Origin: a virus
Strand: one strand, 5' to 3'
DNA: 22,685 nt
Virus record (IMG/VR): IMGVR_UViG_3300008218_002413
Span: 1 to 22,685 of that record
Both the position numbers and the translations under genes were made by a program. Below the pieces are notes generated by a model that worked only from the letters and a program-made list of their open reading frames with translations, did not search any database and was not told where the DNA came from. The stretch's first letter is position 1, and each line of letters starts with the position of its first letter. Positions 1,758 to 21,316 of the stretch are shown in pieces.

Positions 1758-3026
1758 ATGTTTAGACTATCAAGAAGAGGATTCTTATCGGTGGGCGGTT
1801 TTGGTATGTTGTCTTTGCCTAATATTTTACAGGCACAACAACAAAACGGCACCCAACACAAAGCTGTTATTAATATATTTTTAGGAGGAGGTCCTCCGCA
1901 TCAAGACATGTGGGACATTAAAACAGATGCTCCCGCAGAAATTAGAGGCGAATTCCAGCCTATCGATACGTCAGTACCCGGTATCCAGATTGGAGAAAGT
2001 TTTCCTAAGATCGCCTCTATGATGGATAAGTTTGTTGCTATTCGTTCAGTGATCGGTTCGGCTGGTGGTCATGACGGCTATCAATGTATGAGCGGATGGG
2101 GACGAAATGAAAAGATCGTTGGAGTTGGCTATCCTAGTATTGGATCGGTTGCTTCAAAGATTCAAGGTCCCGTAGACGTATCAGTTCCAGCCACTATTGG
2201 TCTGGCAGCTAAAACCAAACATAGCCCGTGGTCTGAGTCTGGTAGTGAGGGCTATCTCGGTATCTCCCATAGACCTTTTAAACCTAATGGCGAGATGATG
2301 TCTGACCTCACCCTTAATGGTATTACTAAAGATAGGCTACAATCTAGAAAAGAATTGCTAACAGGCCTTGGTAATATTAAGCCTGAAGGAGATGTTTTCA
2401 TTGATGAGGCTTTTGATGTACTTACTTCTAGTAAACTTGTAGACGCTCTGGATTTAAGTCAGGAGGACCCTAAAATCCGTGAACGTTATGGAGATGGTAA
2501 GCCTTTTAAGTATCAGTATGACGGTGCTCCTACTGTTAATGAACACGTCCTCATGGCACGCCGTTTGGTTGAGGTAGGAGTGCGTTCTGTGAGCCTTTCT
2601 TATGGTAGATGGGATAGTCATGGCGCTAACTTTGATCTCGTTAGAGATCATGGTGGTAAGCTTGATCAGTGTGTCAGCGCATTGGTTGAGGATCTGGATG
2701 AAAGAGGGATGCTTGATGATGTGACTGTTGTGGTATGGGGCGAGTTTGGTCGTACACCCAAGATTAATAAGGGTGCTGGCCGAGATCACTGGCCACAAGT
2801 TAGTTGCGCTCTATTGGCTGGTGGCGGTATGAAGCTTGGTCAAACGATTGGCGAAACAAATCGTCTTGGTGAACACGCTGTCGAGCGCCCAGTTCATTTT
2901 CAGGAAATTACTAGTACGATTTATTATAATCTTGGAATTGATCCTAGAGACACAACGGTTATCGACACAGGTGGACGACCTCAGTATCTTCTAGATCACC
3001 GAGATCCCATGACAGAGCTGGTTTGA
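1758..3026 (+). CDS. DUF1501 family protein with twin-arginine-type signal (second of tandem pair)
   Basis: A 422-residue DUF1501 protein, paralogous to the gene just upstream but clearly diverged from it. The N terminus SRRGFLSVGG (residues 5-14) is a near-ideal Tat signal, and the region around NILQAQ (about residues 22-27) could hold the cleavage site. Family motifs are visible: FLGGGPPHQDMWD near residue 41, GGHDGYQ near 103, GRWDSHG near 283, WGEFGRTPKINKGAGRDHWP near 330-350, and GGRPQYLLD near the C terminus. The ATG follows a GGAGA Shine-Dalgarno and the gene is probably co-transcribed with the first DUF1501 gene. Like its partner it looks somewhat more GC-rich than the replication genes downstream (a judgement by eye), which may point to acquisition from a host. 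The substrate is unknown. Confidence 0.88.
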   Translation: MFRLSRRGFLSVGGFGMLSLPNILQAQQQNGTQHKAVINIFLGGGPPHQDMWDIKTDAPAEIRGEFQPIDTSVPGIQIGESFPKIASMMDKFVAIRSVIGSAGGHDGYQCMSGWGRNEKIVGVGYPSIGSVASKIQGPVDVSVPATIGLAAKTKHSPWSESGSEGYLGISHRPFKPNGEMMSDLTLNGITKDRLQSRKELLTGLGNIKPEGDVFIDEAFDVLTSSKLVDALDLSQEDPKIRERYGDGKPFKYQYDGAPTVNEHVLMARRLVEVGVRSVSLSYGRWDSHGANFDLVRDHGGKLDQCVSALVEDLDERGMLDDVTVVVWGEFGRTPKINKGAGRDHWPQVSCALLAGGGMKLGQTIGETNRLGEHAVERPVHFQEITSTIYYNLGIDPRDTTVIDTGGRPQYLLDHRDPMTELV

Positions 3027-8641: not shown

Positions 8642-9081
8642 TGTCAGTAATTGACACAGCTAAGGAACTATTAAAAAAGGGAATGGAACTTAACGATCCT
8701 GAACTTATTAAGATGGCCAATACGTTACTAGCAACAGTTGAGACGCCACCAGAAGAGCCCAAAGAAGAAGATCCGCAGAAAGATTCTCTAGTAACACGAA
8801 ATGAAGACAACTTTATCTCATCAATAACCGATGATAAAGACCTGCGATCTGCTAGTGCTACACCAGTTAATCAAGGTAAACGTAAGAATCTTTTTGTTGA
8901 TGATAAAATTGAGGCTATGGATGTCACCACCCCATCCTACAAACCAACTGCAAGAGATAGAAAAAAAGCTAAAAGGGTAGAGCAAAAATGTGAAGAGTGT
9001 CGTAAAACAAGTATTGTTCCAGAAGCGCACGCGCGAGATTTTTTTGTGTGTGATAGTTGCCTCGTAAAAAGGAGAAGATAA
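8641..9081 (+). CDS. unknown protein with C-terminal four-cysteine zinc ribbon
   Basis: A 146-residue protein whose start overlaps the previous stop (TAATG), with AGAGGAG upstream. The first 35 residues form a helix pair (ELLKKGMELNDPELIKMANTLL). Residues 36-100 are acidic, Pro/Glu/Asp-rich and probably disordered. The C terminus is basic (RDRKKAKRVEQ) and carries CEEC (C117, C120) and CDSC (C137, C140), which should bind one zinc ion, ending in KRRR. A disordered acidic linker and basic zinc ribbon suggest a nucleic-acid or protein-docking adaptor. No named family fits. The Shine-Dalgarno for the dUTPase lies in its last codons. Confidence 0.68.
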   Translation: MSVIDTAKELLKKGMELNDPELIKMANTLLATVETPPEEPKEEDPQKDSLVTRNEDNFISSITDDKDLRSASATPVNQGKRKNLFVDDKIEAMDVTTPSYKPTARDRKKAKRVEQKCEECRKTSIVPEAHARDFFVCDSCLVKRRR

Positions 9082-9513
9082 TTGCTTAATATTGATATTA
9101 AAAAACTTGATGATACAGCAATTGTGCCCACTAAAAATAATACAAGTGATGCTGGTTGGGATCTTTACTCCTTAGAGGATAGGGAGATAGAGCGTGGCCG
9201 CAGAGCTACCATTGCTACTGGAATTGCTATGTCAATCCCAGAAGGATATGTTGGCTTAATTTGGCCTCGGTCTGGTCTAGCTGTTAAACGAGGGGTTGCA
9301 ATTTTTGCTGGCGTAATAGATTCAGGATACAGAGGTGAAATAAAAGTATGTCTTTATAATGCTTCCAATGATCCATTTCCTCTAAAGGTTAGTGCTGGAG
9401 ATAGAATCGCCCAAATACTTTTTCAGGAAGTTCCAGACTTTTCTTTGACAGTGGTTGATTCTCTTGATATAACTGAGAGGGGAGGAGATGGCTTTGGTAG
9501 TTCTGGCAAATAG
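9082..9513 (+). CDS. dut: dUTP diphosphatase (dUTPase), TTG start
   Basis: Trimeric dUTPase that hydrolyses dUTP to dUMP and pyrophosphate, keeping uracil out of DNA and supplying dTMP synthesis. All five motifs are present: DAGWDL (residues 23-28), PRSGLA (62-67), GVIDSGYRGEI (77-87, with Asp80 and Tyr83), GDRIAQ (106-111) and RGGDGFGSSGK (133-143, the flexible C-terminal lid). At 143 residues it is full length. No ATG lies near the start; TTG at 9082 is chosen because AAGGAGA (9069-9075) stands six bases upstream and the protein then begins as in relatives. It starts directly after the stop of the zinc-ribbon gene. Confidence 0.95.
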   Translation: MLNIDIKKLDDTAIVPTKNNTSDAGWDLYSLEDREIERGRRATIATGIAMSIPEGYVGLIWPRSGLAVKRGVAIFAGVIDSGYRGEIKVCLYNASNDPFPLKVSAGDRIAQILFQEVPDFSLTVVDSLDITERGGDGFGSSGK

Positions 9514-9522
9514 GGAGATGAT

Positions 9523-9840
9523 ATGTATAACTATCGAGCAAAATTAATTCGCTGTATTGACGGTGATACTGTCGAATTCGATGTAGATCTAGGGTTAAAG
9601 CTTACGGCACGTCTTCGTTGTAGGCTTATAGGTGTTAATACTCCTGAACGGGGACATGTAGATTACAAAACGGCTACCAATGAACTTAAAAAATTAATAG
9701 TAGCTAATATGGATGACCGTGGTAACGTGAATGTTCGAACATATAAAACAGGAAAGTATGGAAGATGGCTAGTTGAGATTGGTGAAAATGGCACTGTTAA
9801 TAAGGCCATGGCTGAGAAGTGGCCGTGGCATGGACCATAG
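9523..9840 (+). CDS. SNase-like (thermonuclease-type) nuclease
   Basis: A small 105-residue nuclease of the staphylococcal-nuclease fold. Key segments are IDGDTVEF (D13, D15), RLIGVNTPER (R34, N39, E42) and TGKYGRWLV (R81), matching the calcium-binding Asp and the catalytic Arg-Glu-Arg set of the family. The position equal to Asp40 of the staphylococcal enzyme is Asn39. The protein lacks a signal peptide, so it should act in the host cytoplasm, perhaps on host DNA or RNA or in DNA processing. It ends shortly after the last conserved helix and is shorter than secreted homologues. ATG 9523 follows GGGAGA. Confidence 0.87.
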   Translation: MYNYRAKLIRCIDGDTVEFDVDLGLKLTARLRCRLIGVNTPERGHVDYKTATNELKKLIVANMDDRGNVNVRTYKTGKYGRWLVEIGENGTVNKAMAEKWPWHGP

Positions 9841-9848
9841 GAGATATA

Positions 9849-10424
9849 ATGAAGATCAATTTGTTAAATGCTTTATATCTGATTGGCCTTGGTGTTTGTC
9901 TAGCAATGACGGTTTCAACATCCTCCACTCCTCCACAAAAAACCATAGAAAGTAAATTTGAAGAAATATATACTATCTTAACTAAGATGAATGAATACGA
10001 AAATTGCTTGGTGGATACACAACTAAGAAGTTTGCACTACGCAAAACCCCACACGGAAATGCAAAAGTTTTGTACGGAGTGTTACGATCTATGGGGTACT
10101 GAAGACAAACAAATTGTAGAAATTTCAGTAGAAAAACTAAATCAACTTCAGCAAATAAAAGAAGAGTCTACAGATTTGCCAGAAGAAAAGCTTTCTGTTG
10201 AAGAAGAGCTAGATTCTATAATTACGCTACTGAAAGGACACCGTTCATTTTTGTATATGATACGCAACTCTGAAGAAAGAACATATCACTATCTAAAAAG
10301 CCACACCCATGAAGGAGCTGGGGCCATTGAAAAATGCCCCGATTGTATGAAACTCAGAAGCAAACAGACAACAGAAACAACTTTTATTTCTAGACAAGAG
10401 TATGAGAAACTCATTAAAAAATAG
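9849..10424 (+). CDS. unknown protein with N-terminal hydrophobic segment and a duplicated His/CxxC motif
   Basis: A 191-residue protein starting at ATG 9849 behind AGGAGA; an earlier in-frame start inside the nuclease gene is rejected. Residues 3-22 are hydrophobic (LLNALYLIGLGVCLAMTV) and form a membrane anchor or uncleaved signal. The rest is helical and charged. Two stretches share a pattern: H63-Y-x-K-x-H68-T leading to C75-x-x-C78, and H147-Y-x-K-x-H152-T leading to C163-x-x-C166. This looks like an internal duplication of a metal-binding unit, with a Glu-rich linker between. Function and family are unknown. Confidence 0.7.
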   Translation: MKINLLNALYLIGLGVCLAMTVSTSSTPPQKTIESKFEEIYTILTKMNEYENCLVDTQLRSLHYAKPHTEMQKFCTECYDLWGTEDKQIVEISVEKLNQLQQIKEESTDLPEEKLSVEEELDSIITLLKGHRSFLYMIRNSEERTYHYLKSHTHEGAGAIEKCPDCMKLRSKQTTETTFISRQEYEKLIKK

Positions 10425-10432
10425 GGGGATAT

Positions 10433-10618
10433 ATGCAATACGTTGTTTATATTACTTTACCAGATGGACAAGCCAAACATTTGAAAATAAAAGCAACGGA
10501 TTGCAAACAAGCTGAACAAATAGCAAAGGATAAATATCCAAGTTCTGAAGTCGGTAGAATTTCAGCCGTCACACAAGAGCTTAATTATTTTAAAGCCATC
10601 AAAAAATGGAAAAAGTAA
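10433..10618 (+). CDS. small unknown protein upstream of the helicase
   Basis: A 61-residue protein, ATG 10433 behind a GGGGGA Shine-Dalgarno. It has two strand-like segments (MQYVVYITL and KHLKIKAT) around a helix (DCKQAEQIAKDKYP), ending in a basic Lys-rich tail. This is a plausible small alpha/beta fold, but the family is not recognised. It overlaps the start of the helicase gene by 13 bases; the helicase has no good Shine-Dalgarno of its own, so translation of this gene may be needed to express it. Confidence 0.6.
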   Translation: MQYVVYITLPDGQAKHLKIKATDCKQAEQIAKDKYPSSEVGRISAVTQELNYFKAIKKWKK

Positions 10619-12078
10619 GCAAAAGAAATTTACAGGATCTAGCTGCCGAAAGGGCTGTACTGGCTGGTCTATGTCAATATGGCCTAGATGCCTTTTTGAA
10701 TATTGATTTTATTGATACTGATCATTTTACTAATGAAATGAATCAGATCATTTTCAAATGTGTCAAGAAGGTAATCTCAGAAAGTAGTCATGTAGAACTA
10801 GCCTCTATTTTAGCGGCAGCTAACAATCTAAACCTGTATGAAAATATTAATAATAAAAATGAGATAGGATTTTTACGATCCCTTTTCAATTTTCCTATCC
10901 ATAAAGATAATATTAGTATTCATGCGGCCAAAATAGCTAAGCTAAAACTAGCTAGAAATATTCAGCAGACTCTCAAGGTTTGTGAAAAACGCCTCAACAC
11001 TATTAGTGGTGATGAGGATATAAATGATTTAATTACTATGGTAGAGTCGCCAATACTGGACGCTACCTCTGCAATATATGAATCATCTAGTCATCAACCA
11101 GAAATAATTGGTGACGAAGTAGAAGCATACATTCACCATCTCGCAGACAATCCTACCGATATGATTGGTATTAGTAGTGGTTTCTCAATTTACGATCAGG
11201 CTATAGGAGGCGGCTTTAGAAGAAAGTGCGTAGACCTTGTGGCCGCGCGACCAAAAGTTGGTAAGTCTATGTTTGGTGATGAAGTGGCTCTGCATGTGAC
11301 ACAGAATTTAGAGATCCCAGTGTTGATGTTAGACACGGAAATGTCTAAAGAAGATCATTTGAATAGAATGCTTGCTAATCTCAGTGGCGTAGACATCAAT
11401 AGAATATCTACTGGAAAATTTGCAGAAAATGAGATAGACAAAAAAAAGATAGAGGAAGCCGCCGAAAAGCTTAAGGCTATACCTTATCATTATATTAGTA
11501 TTGCGGGACAGCCTTTTGAAAATATCTTAGGGCTGATGCGTAAGTGGCTATATCAACACGTAGGAATAGACGAAAATGGTAGAACTAAAGACTGTTTAAT
11601 AATATATGACTACCTTAAGCTAATGGGATCAGATGGTATTTCTAACTCCATGCAAGAATTCCAGTTGCTTGGTTTTCAGATTACCCAACTCCATAATTTT
11701 TGTGTTAAGCATGATGTGCCATGTTTAAGTTTTGTGCAATTGAATAGAGATGGTATAACTAAAGAGTCAACGGATGTAGTTTCTGGTTCTGATCGTTTGA
11801 TTTGGCTATGTACAAGCTTTACTATATTCAAGATGAAATCAGATGAAGAGATAGCAGACGACCTCGAAGAAAATGGCAACAGAAAATTAGTGCCCGTAGT
11901 AGCACGTCATGGGGCTGGCCTAGATGATGGCGATTATATCAACATGAATATGTTCGGAAAGTATGGTAGAATAGAAGAAGGCAAAACACGTAATGAATTG
12001 AAAAAAGCCACCAAGAAAACTGATCGAGGATTTGAAACTGATGAAGATTACGAAGCCACAGATATCGCATCTGTCTAA
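10606..12078 (+). CDS. dnaB: DnaB-type replicative DNA helicase
   Basis: Hexameric replicative helicase that unwinds the fork 5' to 3' using ATP. The N-terminal domain (AAERAVLAGLCQ start, to about residue 130) fits the DnaB helical domain that contacts primase. The RecA-like C-terminal domain has Walker A AARPKVGKS (213-221), the H1a segment MLDTEMS (about 241-247), Walker B LIIYDYLKLM (331-340), and FVQLNRDG as motif H3. At 490 residues it is near family length. The ATG at 10606 has no clear Shine-Dalgarno and overlaps the previous gene. The last 38 bases overlap the primase gene, so the helicase and primase should be made together. Confidence 0.93.
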   Translation: MEKVSKRNLQDLAAERAVLAGLCQYGLDAFLNIDFIDTDHFTNEMNQIIFKCVKKVISESSHVELASILAAANNLNLYENINNKNEIGFLRSLFNFPIHKDNISIHAAKIAKLKLARNIQQTLKVCEKRLNTISGDEDINDLITMVESPILDATSAIYESSSHQPEIIGDEVEAYIHHLADNPTDMIGISSGFSIYDQAIGGGFRRKCVDLVAARPKVGKSMFGDEVALHVTQNLEIPVLMLDTEMSKEDHLNRMLANLSGVDINRISTGKFAENEIDKKKIEEAAEKLKAIPYHYISIAGQPFENILGLMRKWLYQHVGIDENGRTKDCLIIYDYLKLMGSDGISNSMQEFQLLGFQITQLHNFCVKHDVPCLSFVQLNRDGITKESTDVVSGSDRLIWLCTSFTIFKMKSDEEIADDLEENGNRKLVPVVARHGAGLDDGDYINMNMFGKYGRIEEGKTRNELKKATKKTDRGFETDEDYEATDIASV

Positions 12079-16897: not shown

Positions 16898-18445
16898 GTG
16901 AACTGGGCTCCTCTCTGTATACACACGCACTACAGTCTTCTTCGGGGTTTTTGTAAGCCTGATGAAATCGTATCTAAATGTAAGGAGTATGGATATAAAG
17001 CGTGCGCTATTACTGACTATAAATCACTGTCGGGCGCCGTAAATTTTTATAAAGCGTGTCAAGCCGAGGATATTAAACCAATTATAGGATGTGATTTTGG
17101 CGACTTTAGTCTCTTAGCAAAAAACAAAGCGGGCTGGTTTGATCTGATAGAGCTAACCGGAACCATAGGTACAGACAATTTTAATACGACATTAGAGAAG
17201 ATGACTAAAAAGGATAATCTGTATCGACTAGATTCACCACTACGAGAAAGAGAAATCTATTATGCCCAGAAAGAAGATGCTATTCTACAAAGAATATTAC
17301 TATGCTCTGGGATGAAAACCACTCTATCTAAAGTAGAAAAGAAACTAGAAGGGGCTGACAGACGCTTCTTTGATTCAGATGAATTTTATCTCCCCTCTCC
17401 TGATGACTTTGAAAGTATGGGTATTGATGCAAATGAAATCAAAAAAGTGAACCAAGTAGTTGACCTCTGTGAAGAATATGATATCTTAAGGAAGCCGATG
17501 CTTCCTAAATTTGTATGTCCAGATGGTATGGAAGAAAACGATTATTTAACAGAGTTATGTAGAAAAGGGTGGAAACGTTTATTAATTCCACAAGGTAAAG
17601 TAAAAACAGATCAGGCTAAACAGGCCTACGTAGATAGAATAAAGAAGGAACTAGATGTCATATTTGGCGCAGATCTTTCAGGATATTTTCTTATTGTACA
17701 AGATATCATTAGACATATTGAATCAGAGGGTTGGCTCGCTGGTCCCGGTCGAGGATCAGCAGCTGGCTGTTTAATATCCTACCTTATAGGAATTACTAAC
17801 GTAGATCCTATTGAATATAATTTGATTTTTGAAAGATTCTATAACGAAGGCAGAAACACCGAAGAATATATATCGCTACCTGATATTGATATTGATGTAC
17901 CAGCTGAACACCGAGAAGAAGTAATAGATTATATTAAAAGAAAGTATGGCGAAGAGAAAGTGTCTCAGATGATCACATTTGGTAGACTACAAGGAAGAGC
18001 AGCCCTTAAGGAAGTACTAAGAATGCATGACGCCGTTTCATTTGCTGAAATGAATGAGATCACCAAGGGTATTCCTAACGAAGCAGATATTTCTGATCAG
18101 CTGGAAAGTATGGAAGAAAGGTCCATTATCAAATGGGCATTGTTAAACGAAGGAGACAATCTTAGAAAGTGGTGTAAGATCAACGAGGGAGCCCTAGAAG
18201 GCTCCTTAGCGCCACTTTTTGAACAAGCCATACGAATAGAGGGTACAAACAAATCTATGGGTAAACACGCTGCTGGTGTCATTATTTCTAAGGATCGCCT
18301 GAATTCTATTTGTCCTATGACACAGGATAAAAGCGGCAATATGATAGCTGCATTTGAAATGGGCGACTTGGAAAGTCAGGGACATGTTAAGTTTGATATA
18401 TTAGGTATTGATCTATTAAGTAAAATTATGGAAATTAAGGAGTAG
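16898..18445 (+). CDS. dnaE: DNA polymerase III alpha subunit, N-terminal half (PHP and palm), GTG start
   Basis: The first piece of a family-C replicative polymerase split into two genes; 515 residues. It starts with a PHP-type domain (CIHTHYSLLRG, residues 7-17; ACAITD near 35-40) that by comparison from memory with E. coli DnaE is roughly 75 residues shorter. The palm follows: AGPGRGSAAG (281-290), LPDIDID (327-333, with the two paired catalytic Asp), FGRLQGRAALKEV, GKHAAGVIIS, then VKFDILG with D500 in the place of the third catalytic Asp. It stops 15 residues later, just before the fingers. The GTG at 16898 is the only start that gives a normal N terminus. The downstream Shine-Dalgarno lies in the last codons. 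Confidence 0.93.
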   Translation: MNWAPLCIHTHYSLLRGFCKPDEIVSKCKEYGYKACAITDYKSLSGAVNFYKACQAEDIKPIIGCDFGDFSLLAKNKAGWFDLIELTGTIGTDNFNTTLEKMTKKDNLYRLDSPLREREIYYAQKEDAILQRILLCSGMKTTLSKVEKKLEGADRRFFDSDEFYLPSPDDFESMGIDANEIKKVNQVVDLCEEYDILRKPMLPKFVCPDGMEENDYLTELCRKGWKRLLIPQGKVKTDQAKQAYVDRIKKELDVIFGADLSGYFLIVQDIIRHIESEGWLAGPGRGSAAGCLISYLIGITNVDPIEYNLIFERFYNEGRNTEEYISLPDIDIDVPAEHREEVIDYIKRKYGEEKVSQMITFGRLQGRAALKEVLRMHDAVSFAEMNEITKGIPNEADISDQLESMEERSIIKWALLNEGDNLRKWCKINEGALEGSLAPLFEQAIRIEGTNKSMGKHAAGVIISKDRLNSICPMTQDKSGNMIAAFEMGDLESQGHVKFDILGIDLLSKIMEIKE

Positions 18446-18447
18446 AC

Positions 18448-18687
18448 ATGAGAGACCACAACATCCTTAGGCAGGACTTTAAATCAGTTATTTATTATGG
18501 GTGCGCTCTAGAGTATAATAAGATCTCAGTGTGTGACCTAAGAAAGATGCTCCCAGAGTATAGAGATAGAAAAGACGGTATGTATCAAGTAGACGCAAGT
18601 AGCTCACAAGTAAAGTTCTCGAAAATATATAGAAATATTGATGATGCGTTAGATAAATTCTTTGAAATTGTAGAAGGGACATCCTAA
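18448..18687 (+). CDS. small unknown protein between the polymerase halves
   Basis: A 79-residue protein with a strong AAGGAG Shine-Dalgarno (18438-18443) and ATG at 18448, two bases after the stop of the polymerase N-terminal gene; its own stop overlaps the exonuclease start (TAATG). The sequence is mixed alpha/beta: DFKSVIYYGCALEYNKISV, a DLRKMLPEYRDRKDG helix and turn, then a SSSQVKFSKIYRN strand and a helical IDDALDKFFEIVE end. It carries no cysteine cluster and shows no intein or homing-nuclease motif. Placement suggests a role with the polymerase or exonuclease, but no function can be assigned. Confidence 0.62.
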   Translation: MRDHNILRQDFKSVIYYGCALEYNKISVCDLRKMLPEYRDRKDGMYQVDASSSQVKFSKIYRNIDDALDKFFEIVEGTS

Positions 18688-19376
18688 TGAACTATAGAGA
18701 TATTATTGTCTTCGATTTTGAAACTGGTAGTCGTAATCCACTGATGACGCAACCTACTCAGATAGCAGCAATTGCCATCCATGCTAGAAAATTAACCCTT
18801 CAACCCGGAGGTGTTTTTAATAGTGAGATGAGGCCAATAGTAGATGAGGAAAAGGCTGTGGCGGCAGGTGTTGATCCGCTTGAAGATGAAGCTTTAACAA
18901 TTACGCATAAGACAAGGGACAAACTAGCGAAAGCACCTCTCCCTAAGACAGTTTGGAAAAAATTTGGACAGTTCTGTGACAAATATAATTTCAGAAAATC
19001 TAGTTACACTGCGCCAATAGCCGCCGGATATAATATTATTGGATTTGATTTGCCTATAGTGCATCGAATGTGTGAAGAGCATGGGCCAACCGACACTAAG
19101 GGTAGACAAAAACTTTTTAATCCTATCTTTAAACTTGATTTGATGGACATGGTTTTTTCATGGACGGAAAACAATAAAGATGTAAAATCCTTAAACATGG
19201 ATTACCTCCGTGAATATTTTGGCTTCCCAGAAGAATCAAAAGAGAAAGCTCACGATGCTCTTCAGGATGTTAAGGATACAGCTAACATTTTAATTAAATT
19301 TTTGAAGTTCCAAAGAAAGCTTGCAGAAAAAACCAAATTTGAAAAGGCTTTTGCAAATGGCGAATTTTACGTTTAA
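18687..19376 (+). CDS. DnaQ-like 3'-5' proofreading exonuclease (DEDDh)
   Basis: A 229-residue exonuclease with a complete DEDDh site: FDFETG (D10, E12), NIIGFDLPIV (D121) and the HDALQDV segment (H189, D194). In Pol III holoenzymes such proteins (epsilon/DnaQ) correct polymerase errors. Being encoded between the two polymerase pieces, it is almost certainly the proofreading partner of this polymerase. The central part (about 40-105) is longer than the minimal DnaQ core and contains a Cys-free charged insertion of unknown role. The stop of the 79-aa gene and this start overlap, and its last 20 bases overlap the second polymerase gene. Confidence 0.92.
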   Translation: MNYRDIIVFDFETGSRNPLMTQPTQIAAIAIHARKLTLQPGGVFNSEMRPIVDEEKAVAAGVDPLEDEALTITHKTRDKLAKAPLPKTVWKKFGQFCDKYNFRKSSYTAPIAAGYNIIGFDLPIVHRMCEEHGPTDTKGRQKLFNPIFKLDLMDMVFSWTENNKDVKSLNMDYLREYFGFPEESKEKAHDALQDVKDTANILIKFLKFQRKLAEKTKFEKAFANGEFYV

Positions 19377-20922
19377 CATGAACGATTTTCACGATGATAG
19401 GGTGTGGGATCTCATATGTGATGGTAGGACAAAGGGAGTATTTCAGCTAGAGTCGCAACTCGGACGTTCATGGGCTAGAAGGGTAGCCCCCCGAAATATT
19501 CAAGAACTAGCCGCTCTTATTTCACTAATCCGTCCCGGCTGTCTTAAAGCTTTTACGGATGATAAGTCTATGACGCAACATTATGTAGATAGAAAATCCA
19601 AAACTGATCCTGTAACATATCCACATGAATCTTTAGAACGCATCCTAGAAGAAACATATGGGGTGCTTGTTTATCAAGAGCAGTCCATGATGATAGCTCA
19701 AGAACTGGCAGGTTTTAGTCTAAAGGATGCCGACTCATTACGTAAGGCTATCGGAAAAAAGAAAGCTGGCTTGATGACAGAAGTCAAGAAGTCTTTTCTA
19801 GAAGGCTCAAAAAATAAAGGCACTGTTACTACGGCAGTCGCTGAAGAGATTTTTTCATGGATTGAAAAATCCAATCGTTATGCTTTCAACAAGTCCCACG
19901 CTGTTAGCTATGCTATCAATGCCTATTGGAGTGCATACTGTAAGTGCTATCGTCCCGTGAGATTTTTTAAGACTTACCTTAATCATGCAAAAAGAAAACC
20001 AGACCCCAAACAAGAAATTAAAGAGCTAGTGACTGATGCTAAAATGAATGATATTGAAGTATATCCTCCCCGTTTGAAGCATCTATATAAAAACTTTCAG
20101 TCTGTCTCAAAAACAATTCACTTTGGTATCAATAATGTTAAACATGTGGGCGAAGTAGAATGTGATAAGATAAACAAGTTTCTTCCTGAAACAGAAGAGA
20201 TTTTGAACAAGACTATAGATGATTGGAATTGGCTTGATATTTTAAATAACTTATGTTCCATTTTGAATAAACAGGCTGTGGTGGCTTTGATTTCTGTAGG
20301 GGCTTTTAATGGTAAAAATAATAACAAGAACAGAAATGAAATGCTATATGAGTTTGACAGCTGGAAACAACTATCTGCAAGAGAACAAAAATATATCAAA
20401 GAGAATTATTCCAACCATGAGACTCTTATTCAATGTATAGGATATATGATCAATAATCTCAAGATTAATTCTAGAAGACTGATTACAGTAGTAGATATCA
20501 AAAACTCCCTAGAAAACCCATTTTATGATATCAAAGATGACCCCATATGGATTGCCGATACGGAAGAGAAATACATGGGATGCGCCTTAACTTGCGGTAA
20601 AACAGACTATGTTCAAAGCAACCTTGTAAATACTGTATGTAAAGATGTAGCTCTTGGGTACATGAAAGGCAAAGTAAATGTGGCTGTGCAGATTAATTCC
20701 TTAAGAGAATATAAGACTAAAAAGGGTAAAAATCCGGGACAACTTATGGCATTTTTATCAGTGGAAGATAGCTCTGGCGTACTAGATTCAGTCATCATAT
20801 TCCCAGAAGACTACCAAAAAAACAAGGAATTTTTAGTCGAAGGTAACATGGTGATCCTAATGGGACAGACATCCAAGAAAGAAGATGGTGGAATTATTGT
20901 AAATAAAGTGTGCCAAATTTAA
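19357..20922 (+). CDS. dnaE: DNA polymerase III alpha subunit, C-terminal half (fingers, HhH, OB)
   Basis: The second piece of the split family-C polymerase; 521 residues from ATG 19357 (ATG 19378 is also possible). It begins at the point where the first piece stops: DDRVWDLICDGRTKGVFQLES lines up with the segment before VFQLES in E. coli DnaE. RPG (59-61), YGVLVYQEQSMMIAQ, GKKKAGL and the FNKSHAVSYA motif of the fingers follow. Then come a helix-hairpin-helix-like region (FGINNVKHVGE) and an OB fold (about 435-515) at the C terminus, with no tau-binding tail beyond it. No QxxL/F clamp-binding motif was recognised. The start overlaps the exonuclease gene by 20 bases, with AAGG about nine bases upstream. 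Confidence 0.92.
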   Translation: MANFTFNMNDFHDDRVWDLICDGRTKGVFQLESQLGRSWARRVAPRNIQELAALISLIRPGCLKAFTDDKSMTQHYVDRKSKTDPVTYPHESLERILEETYGVLVYQEQSMMIAQELAGFSLKDADSLRKAIGKKKAGLMTEVKKSFLEGSKNKGTVTTAVAEEIFSWIEKSNRYAFNKSHAVSYAINAYWSAYCKCYRPVRFFKTYLNHAKRKPDPKQEIKELVTDAKMNDIEVYPPRLKHLYKNFQSVSKTIHFGINNVKHVGEVECDKINKFLPETEEILNKTIDDWNWLDILNNLCSILNKQAVVALISVGAFNGKNNNKNRNEMLYEFDSWKQLSAREQKYIKENYSNHETLIQCIGYMINNLKINSRRLITVVDIKNSLENPFYDIKDDPIWIADTEEKYMGCALTCGKTDYVQSNLVNTVCKDVALGYMKGKVNVAVQINSLREYKTKKGKNPGQLMAFLSVEDSSGVLDSVIIFPEDYQKNKEFLVEGNMVILMGQTSKKEDGGIIVNKVCQI

Positions 20923-20971: not shown

Positions 20972-21316
20972 ATGAATAGATGCACTTTTGTCGGCAGGCT
21001 GGTAGCCGACCCCAGACTAAAAGAAGTAAATAATACCCACCTTGTAAGCTTTACTTTGGCTATTGAGGAACATAGAAAAGATAAAGACGGCACGAAAAAG
21101 AAAAGGGTGGATTTTCTAGAATTCGAGGCATGGGATAGTGGCGCCACCACTATTCATAAATACTGCAAAAAAGGGGACTTTATTGCCGTAGAAGCTATCG
21201 CCAGACAACAAAGATGGACAGTTGGTGAAGAAAAAAGACAAAAGGTAAACTTTAGAATAACCAATTTCAAAATCTTCAACAATAATAGAGAAGAAAATCT
21301 TAATGAAGAAGCGTAA
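20972..21316 (+). CDS. ssb: single-stranded DNA-binding protein
   Basis: A 114-residue SSB with an OB fold: MNRCTFVGRLVADPRLKEV at the start, a central FTLAIEEHRKDKDG, WDSGATTIHKYCKKGDFIAVEA (loop and strand typical of bacterial SSB), and VNFRITNFKIF near the end. It binds unwound DNA during replication and recombination. The C terminus ends in REENLNEEA, acidic but without the DDDIPF-like tip through which bacterial SSB recruits partners. The ATG at 20972 (GGAGA about five bases upstream) is chosen over TTG 20960. A 49-base gap separates it from the polymerase gene. It overlaps the next gene by 14 bases. Confidence 0.93.
   Translation: MNRCTFVGRLVADPRLKEVNNTHLVSFTLAIEEHRKDKDGTKKKRVDFLEFEAWDSGATTIHKYCKKGDFIAVEAIARQQRWTVGEEKRQKVNFRITNFKIFNNNREENLNEEA

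Follow-up and report, generated by a model that had tools for sequence, protein, structure and literature searches.

A viral DNA polymerase III alpha subunit encoded as two genes with an exonuclease gene between them

The alpha subunit of bacterial DNA polymerase III (Pol III) is one chain, normally of ~1,100 residues, and dnaQ is not normally found inside dnaE. In cyanobacteria, protein trans-splicing at the FNKSH region links the two halves of DnaE, and fractured genes with split inteins were reportedly the subject of work by Dassa et al. in 2009. Among phages, the family B polymerase gp43 of Aeromonas phage 25 is split into two pieces that co-purify and are active, the interruption of its gene being associated with a seg endonuclease and that of phage 44RR with untranslated sequence, according to a review (PMC2988022, citing Petrov et al. 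2010). Here we describe an IMG/VR virus record taken whole (IMGVR_UViG_3300008218_002413, 22,685 bases; hereafter the window), in which Pol III alpha, a family C polymerase, is encoded as two separate intact open reading frames (ORFs) with the gene of a DnaQ-like exonuclease in the gap. The ORF list and Pfam matches give the plus-strand order N half, 79-aa ORF, exonuclease, C half and single-strand DNA-binding protein (SSB). The original prediction, made from the sequence of the window without database searches, was of a polymerase split into two genes, each with its own start and stop, around its proofreading exonuclease; ORFs, domains and recurrence among related viruses agree that the split is real and that both polymerase genes are distinct and intact.

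The two polymerase genes and the break between them

The N half, which starts with GTG, matches the Pfam families PHP (PF02811, 5.6e-20) and DNA_pol3_alpha (PF07733, 1.6e-72), finds the Taq and E. coli DnaE proteins in a sequence search of the Protein Data Bank (PDB), and has its best stretch in PHROG 405 at positions 246-610. The C half covers positions 627-1055 of the same profile (length 1190) and matches DNA_pol3_finger (PF17657, 3.6e-45), which places the fingers in the second gene as predicted; HHH_6 scores 24.3, just below its cut-off of 25.6, and the alignment to the Taq oligonucleotide-binding (OB) region is weak. In a multiple alignment of the C halves, full-length bacterial DnaE served as the guide. 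All three catalytic aspartates lie in the first gene, again as predicted: Asp329 and Asp331 (PDID) and Asp500 (KFD) are invariant in a 13-lineage alignment, and in the larger locus set the third is retained in all loci but one, the apparent misses being DILA, DVLA or DVLS variants and locus L325 carrying an internal deletion. The palm with its three Asp, the PHP domain and the fingers make this a family C DNA polymerase. What departs from that family is the single polypeptide, in place of which the window has two ORFs, as do 126 of 127 loci; this two-ORF state is the new element here and is no ground to exclude the protein from the family C fold.

The ends of the two genes needed some adjustment. 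The first was said to end 15 residues after VKFDILG, which is correct when counted from the Asp of that motif (residue 500); it ends 12 residues after the motif itself. The second, said to begin just before VFQLES, most likely starts at ATG 19357, 27 residues upstream of VFQLES, the only ATG that the relative L005 keeps. From that ATG the C half overlaps the exonuclease gene by 20 nt; of 126 loci, 68 have a C start that overlaps the exonuclease stop.

Matched by sequence to solved structures, the N half corresponds to residues 259-563 and the C half to residues 592-847 of E. coli DnaE, placing the break at ~570/581 in that numbering, which we take to be the palm/fingers boundary. Aligned with L055, a relative in which the polymerase is fused, the N half of the window extends to residue 620 and the C half starts from residue 626, with only 5 residues between them; nothing conserved is therefore missing at the break. 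L055 was modelled with AlphaFold2 over the 808 aa that precede its intein, and the model has a predicted local distance difference test score (pLDDT) of 93.8, a predicted template modelling (TM) score of 0.89 and a normal DnaE fold, with a TM score of 0.81 to E. coli 2hnh and of ~0.8 to E. coli and Taq DnaE, and the break falls in this model on the turn that links helix 612-624 to helix 634-641. As modelled, the break is a loop between two helices at the palm/fingers boundary, with no conserved sequence lost, and the agreement of the E. coli DnaE and L055 alignments upholds its predicted position in the palm-to-fingers linker.

The protein encoded in the gap matches RNase_T of Pfam (4.5e-12) and PHROG 192, the polymerase exonuclease subunit (1.1e-21), and its DEDDh set (D, E, D, H, D) is invariant in 22 lineages. 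The prediction of a proofreading exonuclease thus holds as regards a DEDDh exonuclease; the proofreading part is an inference, the best PDB sequence matches being the PolC exonuclease and exonuclease I/III chains and not E. coli epsilon, although from its sequence and location the enzyme is the probable proofreader of the split polymerase. The exonuclease is the constant occupant of the gap, unlike the 79-aa gene, which is lineage-specific, with homologues in 59 of the 127 loci (35-row alignment). The 79-aa protein has an AlphaFold2 pLDDT of 85 and a ratio of nonsynonymous to synonymous substitution rates (dN/dS) of 0.05, and a fold search with its model returned no match at E <= 0.001.

Recurrence of the arrangement and its history

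Five scans of IMG/VR using both halves and their alignments yielded 127 distinct complete loci, of which all but one (126) keep the order N half, exonuclease, C half, down to ~40% identity; in the last scan, each of the 77 newly fetched loci (a few being contigs from earlier scans) is split with the exonuclease between (77/77). Recurrence of the order N half, 79-aa gene, DnaQ, C half is thereby borne out for its three larger genes, and the 79-aa gene joins them in part of the lineage. A pattern scan gave at least 600 matching IMG/VR stretches, of which the best 80 were examined, and the group is probably larger than the 127 loci. Four other IMG/VR source samples yielded contigs (L002-L004, L006) whose locus encodes proteins 100% identical to those of the window, which rules out an assembly error as the cause of the split. 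Against L005, dN/dS is 0.063 for the N half and 0.021 for the C half, and other pairwise comparisons of the halves with unsaturated dS give 0.03-0.07; judged by these ratios, both halves are under strong purifying selection.

No cultured phage with this layout was found, the best identities per half being ~30-36%; of the phage loci that were opened, L182-L187 have the polymerase as a single ORF, and L126 and L188 have it broken in another way. In bacterial genomes, scanning turned up only relatives at ~28-31% identity. Two phages that came up as candidates were set aside: in Bacteroides phage SJC03 a DnaQ-like gene stands beside two large genes, which are terminase and ligase, and Rhizobium phage RHEph10 has one full-length polymerase gene.

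In one relative, L054/L055, both halves form one chain, and in L055 the order is 79-aa gene, exonuclease, fused polymerase, with the exonuclease upstream. Trees of 56 rows, of a careful 20 rows and of 27 rows with deeper lineages and bacterial outgroups were built, with bacterial and phage sequences as outgroups. All three place L054/L055 inside the split clade (support 95/93 in the 20-row tree), and monophyly of all split rows without L054/L055 is rejected by the approximately unbiased (AU) test (p 0.019 for 20 rows, 0.036 for 27 rows). L055 has the 79-aa gene in common with the window's part of the clade, and this together with the nested position argues that the split is older and L055 a re-fusion. 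That the split is ancestral, with L055 a re-fused single chain of changed gene order, is on these trees likely rather than proven.

Several relatives show further modifications of the polymerase genes. The PHP motifs look canonical (TDHG, GCE, DAHY) in L281, L314, L320 and L335, in comparison with which part of the PHP domain is lost in the window's clade; the PHP region of that clade is ~100 aa shorter than in L055 and L177. The first catalytic motif of L115 reads SLDSDVD, not LPDIDVD. The N half of L163 (4271-6264) is split ahead of LPDIDID into two frames that overlap, with foreign sequence that may be an intron or an insertion, and that of L350 (6766-9108) has a split-intein-like break at GPGRG/SAAG (the slash marking the break). 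The C half bears an N-terminal extension with a CGC motif in L314, L317, L326, L335 and L353, absent from the window's clade. Intein-like in-frame insertions in the fingers at IRPG/C occur in L113 (5090-7246), L136 (12473-14059) and L138 (12322-14676), those of L136 and L138 matching Intein_splicing (PF14890) and that of L113 being recognised by eye. The fused polymerase of L055 is broken again at FNR/SHS by split-intein halves (8700-9935 and 9899-11020), between which lies a 295-aa nuclease-like ORF with NUMOD3 and DUF559 matches; L047, L051, L057 and L136 carry split-intein halves at FNK/SH besides the N/C break, so that the polymerase is in three genes. In other lineages, methyltransferase or glycosyltransferase genes lie between the exonuclease and the C half.

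The features of the locus are collected in Table 1. The SSB gene is a conserved neighbour, following the C half in most of the loci that extend far enough, and the surrounding genes of the window encode PhoH, RecA/UvsX-type, DnaB-type and primase proteins. Elsewhere in the window, two adjacent proteins (494-1744 and 1758-3026) have N termini of RR type; in its copy on a 103-kb contig the first is DUF1501 (PF07394), the second looks similar, and another ORF resembling the pair is found in L276 (10532-11779).

Table 1. Coordinates of the split polymerase locus and its neighbour in the window
Feature	Positions	Strand	Evidence
N half of Pol III alpha, 515 aa: shortened PHP, palm, thumb	16898-18445	+	Pfam PHP, DNA_pol3_alpha; PDB matches
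Gap between polymerase halves, without intein or Rfam intron match	18446-19356	+	Pfam, Rfam searches
79-aa protein	18448-18687	+	Homologues in part of lineage; AlphaFold2 model
DnaQ-like DEDDh 3'-5' exonuclease, probable proofreader	18687-19376	+	Pfam RNase_T; PHROG 192
C half of Pol III alpha: fingers, putative helix-hairpin-helix and OB region	19357-20922	+	Pfam DNA_pol3_finger; PHROG 405; E. coli DnaE alignment
SSB, directly 3' of C half	20972-21316	+	Pfam SSB, 6.3e-17

Proposed assembly of the two chains and rival explanations

We consider it likely, from the sequences, that the two chains assemble non-covalently and without splicing into one Pol III alpha, which the exonuclease joins as proofreader. 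Chain N would bring PHP, thumb and palm with the three catalytic Asp, and chain C the fingers and the putative helix-hairpin-helix and OB region; the two would stay separate polypeptides in non-covalent association, the DEDDh exonuclease, translated between the halves, would enter the complex as proofreader, and the gene order N half, exonuclease, C half may help the chains to meet during translation. What the sequences show is two distinct intact ORFs, an intein-free break in a loop, a single copy of each half per contig, the conserved order, purifying selection and a fused relative nested among the split ones; that the chains bind and polymerize, that the exonuclease proofreads and that the gene order is of benefit is what we infer. 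The gp43 precedent indicates that a split replicative polymerase can work as two chains (PMC2988022). A bolder form of this proposal, toward which we lean neither way, is that a broad viral lineage has a stable two-chain replicase within an obligate three-protein complex, whose assembly in translation keeps the exonuclease gene between the halves, the split being ancestral and one lineage having gone back to a single chain, its exonuclease gene now upstream.

Some of the evidence pulls the other way. The exonuclease is no closer to epsilon than to exonuclease I and the PolC exonuclease, and by these resemblances could have a repair role; the AU p values are moderate (0.02-0.04), with L054/L055 on a long branch; and a second polymerase could lie outside the assembled part of some genomes, whose contigs may be incomplete. 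A full-length polymerase gene elsewhere in the genome was looked for in 16 large contigs (69-173 kb) and not found; every one of them has exactly one PF07733 match and one region matching PF17657 (in contig G010, an intein divides the fingers match into two pieces). The possible incompleteness of the contigs, together with the PHP region shortened in the window's clade relative to L055 and L177, leaves some room for the explanation that one or both halves are remnants or differently employed while a host or unseen viral polymerase replicates the genome; we regard this as unlikely, given the low dN/dS of both halves, the invariant catalytic residues, the conserved linkage to SSB and the presence in the window of genes for helicase, primase and recombinase. 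Recent damage to the gene, or an artefact of assembly, has only general possibility in its favour as an account of the break and is refuted by recurrence, since identical proteins come from the different samples of L002-L004 and L006 and the same break recurs throughout the loci (126/127) at identities down to ~40%.

The junction itself was searched for joining devices. The prediction of a break without an intein stands: Pfam detects no intein family in the window halves, and across lineages the N tails stop 12-40 residues beyond the catalytic motif and the C leaders begin 18-55 residues before FQLE, lengths that are short for intein halves and so support the absence of an intein at the N/C junction. 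Group I introns often interrupt phage polymerase genes, and the dnaE of Bacillus phage vB_BauM_KLEB27-3 is broken inside its FQIE motif, with an HNH gene and a weak group I intron match beside it (L188:6770-6985), below the family's gathering score; by analogy, the halves here might be rejoined at the RNA level, the gap being, or lying in, a trans-acting or degenerate self-splicing intron. We find this very improbable. Rfam searches, which covered group I and II introns and RNA structure, gave no intron in the window at gathering score and no match in the gap at E up to 1, and since the same kind of search flags the group I intron-like stretch in KLEB27-3, the test can tell such cases apart; moreover, the N tail closes soon after the motif and the C half has its own ATG across lineages, other conserved genes occupy the gap, and one relative with rearranged order has both halves as one ORF.

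How the split arose is a separate matter, and an origin compatible with two-chain assembly is that a homing-type nuclease broke the gene, the halves kept working and the nuclease subsequently disappeared from the lineage of the window. L030, L034 and L085 have endonuclease VII-type ORFs (PF02945) placed after the exonuclease and before the C half, with ORFs similar to this type in L069, L077, L119 and L120, and there are T4-like precedents (PMC2988022). The window's own gap contains no endonuclease gene, the constant occupant is the exonuclease, and the patchy nucleases could be later arrivals; the endonuclease VII-type ORFs of the relatives make a mobile-endonuclease origin plausible, though we hold it tentatively.

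If the two chains do assemble, these viruses offer a natural, ancient and successful cut of Pol III alpha exactly between palm and fingers, ready-made for mechanistic questions such as whether the halves bind each other before DNA, whether the exonuclease bridges them and whether the split is regulated, with the natural re-fusion providing a matched single-chain comparison. Annotation that looks for a "full-length polymerase" would go wrong in a large group of uncultivated viruses.

Comparison with known split polymerases

The protein resembles bacterial Pol III alpha of the DnaE1 type in its catalytic residues and, through the fused relative (TM ~0.8), in its fold. It shares with cyanobacterial split-intein DnaE the presence of two genes, but in the window there are no intein halves, the break lies ~180 residues earlier and FNKSH is uninterrupted inside the C half, so that the predicted contrast with the cyanobacterial system holds. 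Some relatives nonetheless have split inteins near FNKSH as in cyanobacterial DnaE: L055, L047, L051, L057 and L136 are broken at FNK/SH in the fingers like the fractured split-intein genes, and there this is a second, separate break, the N/C junction being without an intein.

Other interrupted family C polymerases are found in phages. Cellulophaga phage phi13:1 has its polymerase in two adjacent genes (gp038/gp039), but the break falls before PDID, nothing separates the genes and the exonuclease gene is elsewhere. The polymerase of KLEB27-3 (gp166/gp164) is interrupted near the palm/fingers junction, but the break is within the FQIE motif, an HNH gene and a match to intron-like RNA accompany it, and the product is probably spliced. 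A search of the literature found no report of this break or of an exonuclease gene between the halves in searchable papers, subscription papers being mostly outside the search; a paper on marine jumbo phages mentions only the presence of PF07733 (PMC9123017). Already known, therefore, are split replicative polymerases in family B, the intein-split DnaE of cyanobacteria, and other family C breaks such as those of phi13:1 and KLEB27-3.

The closest precedent is Aeromonas gp43, likewise a replicative phage polymerase made as two polypeptides without an intein (PMC2988022). The two systems differ in that gp43 belongs to family B and the polymerase of the window to family C, and in that no exonuclease gene in the gap is described for gp43. 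The gp43 split is moreover presented in the review from individual Aeromonas phages (PMC2988022), whereas the two-gene Pol III alpha around an exonuclease gene characterizes a broad viral group.

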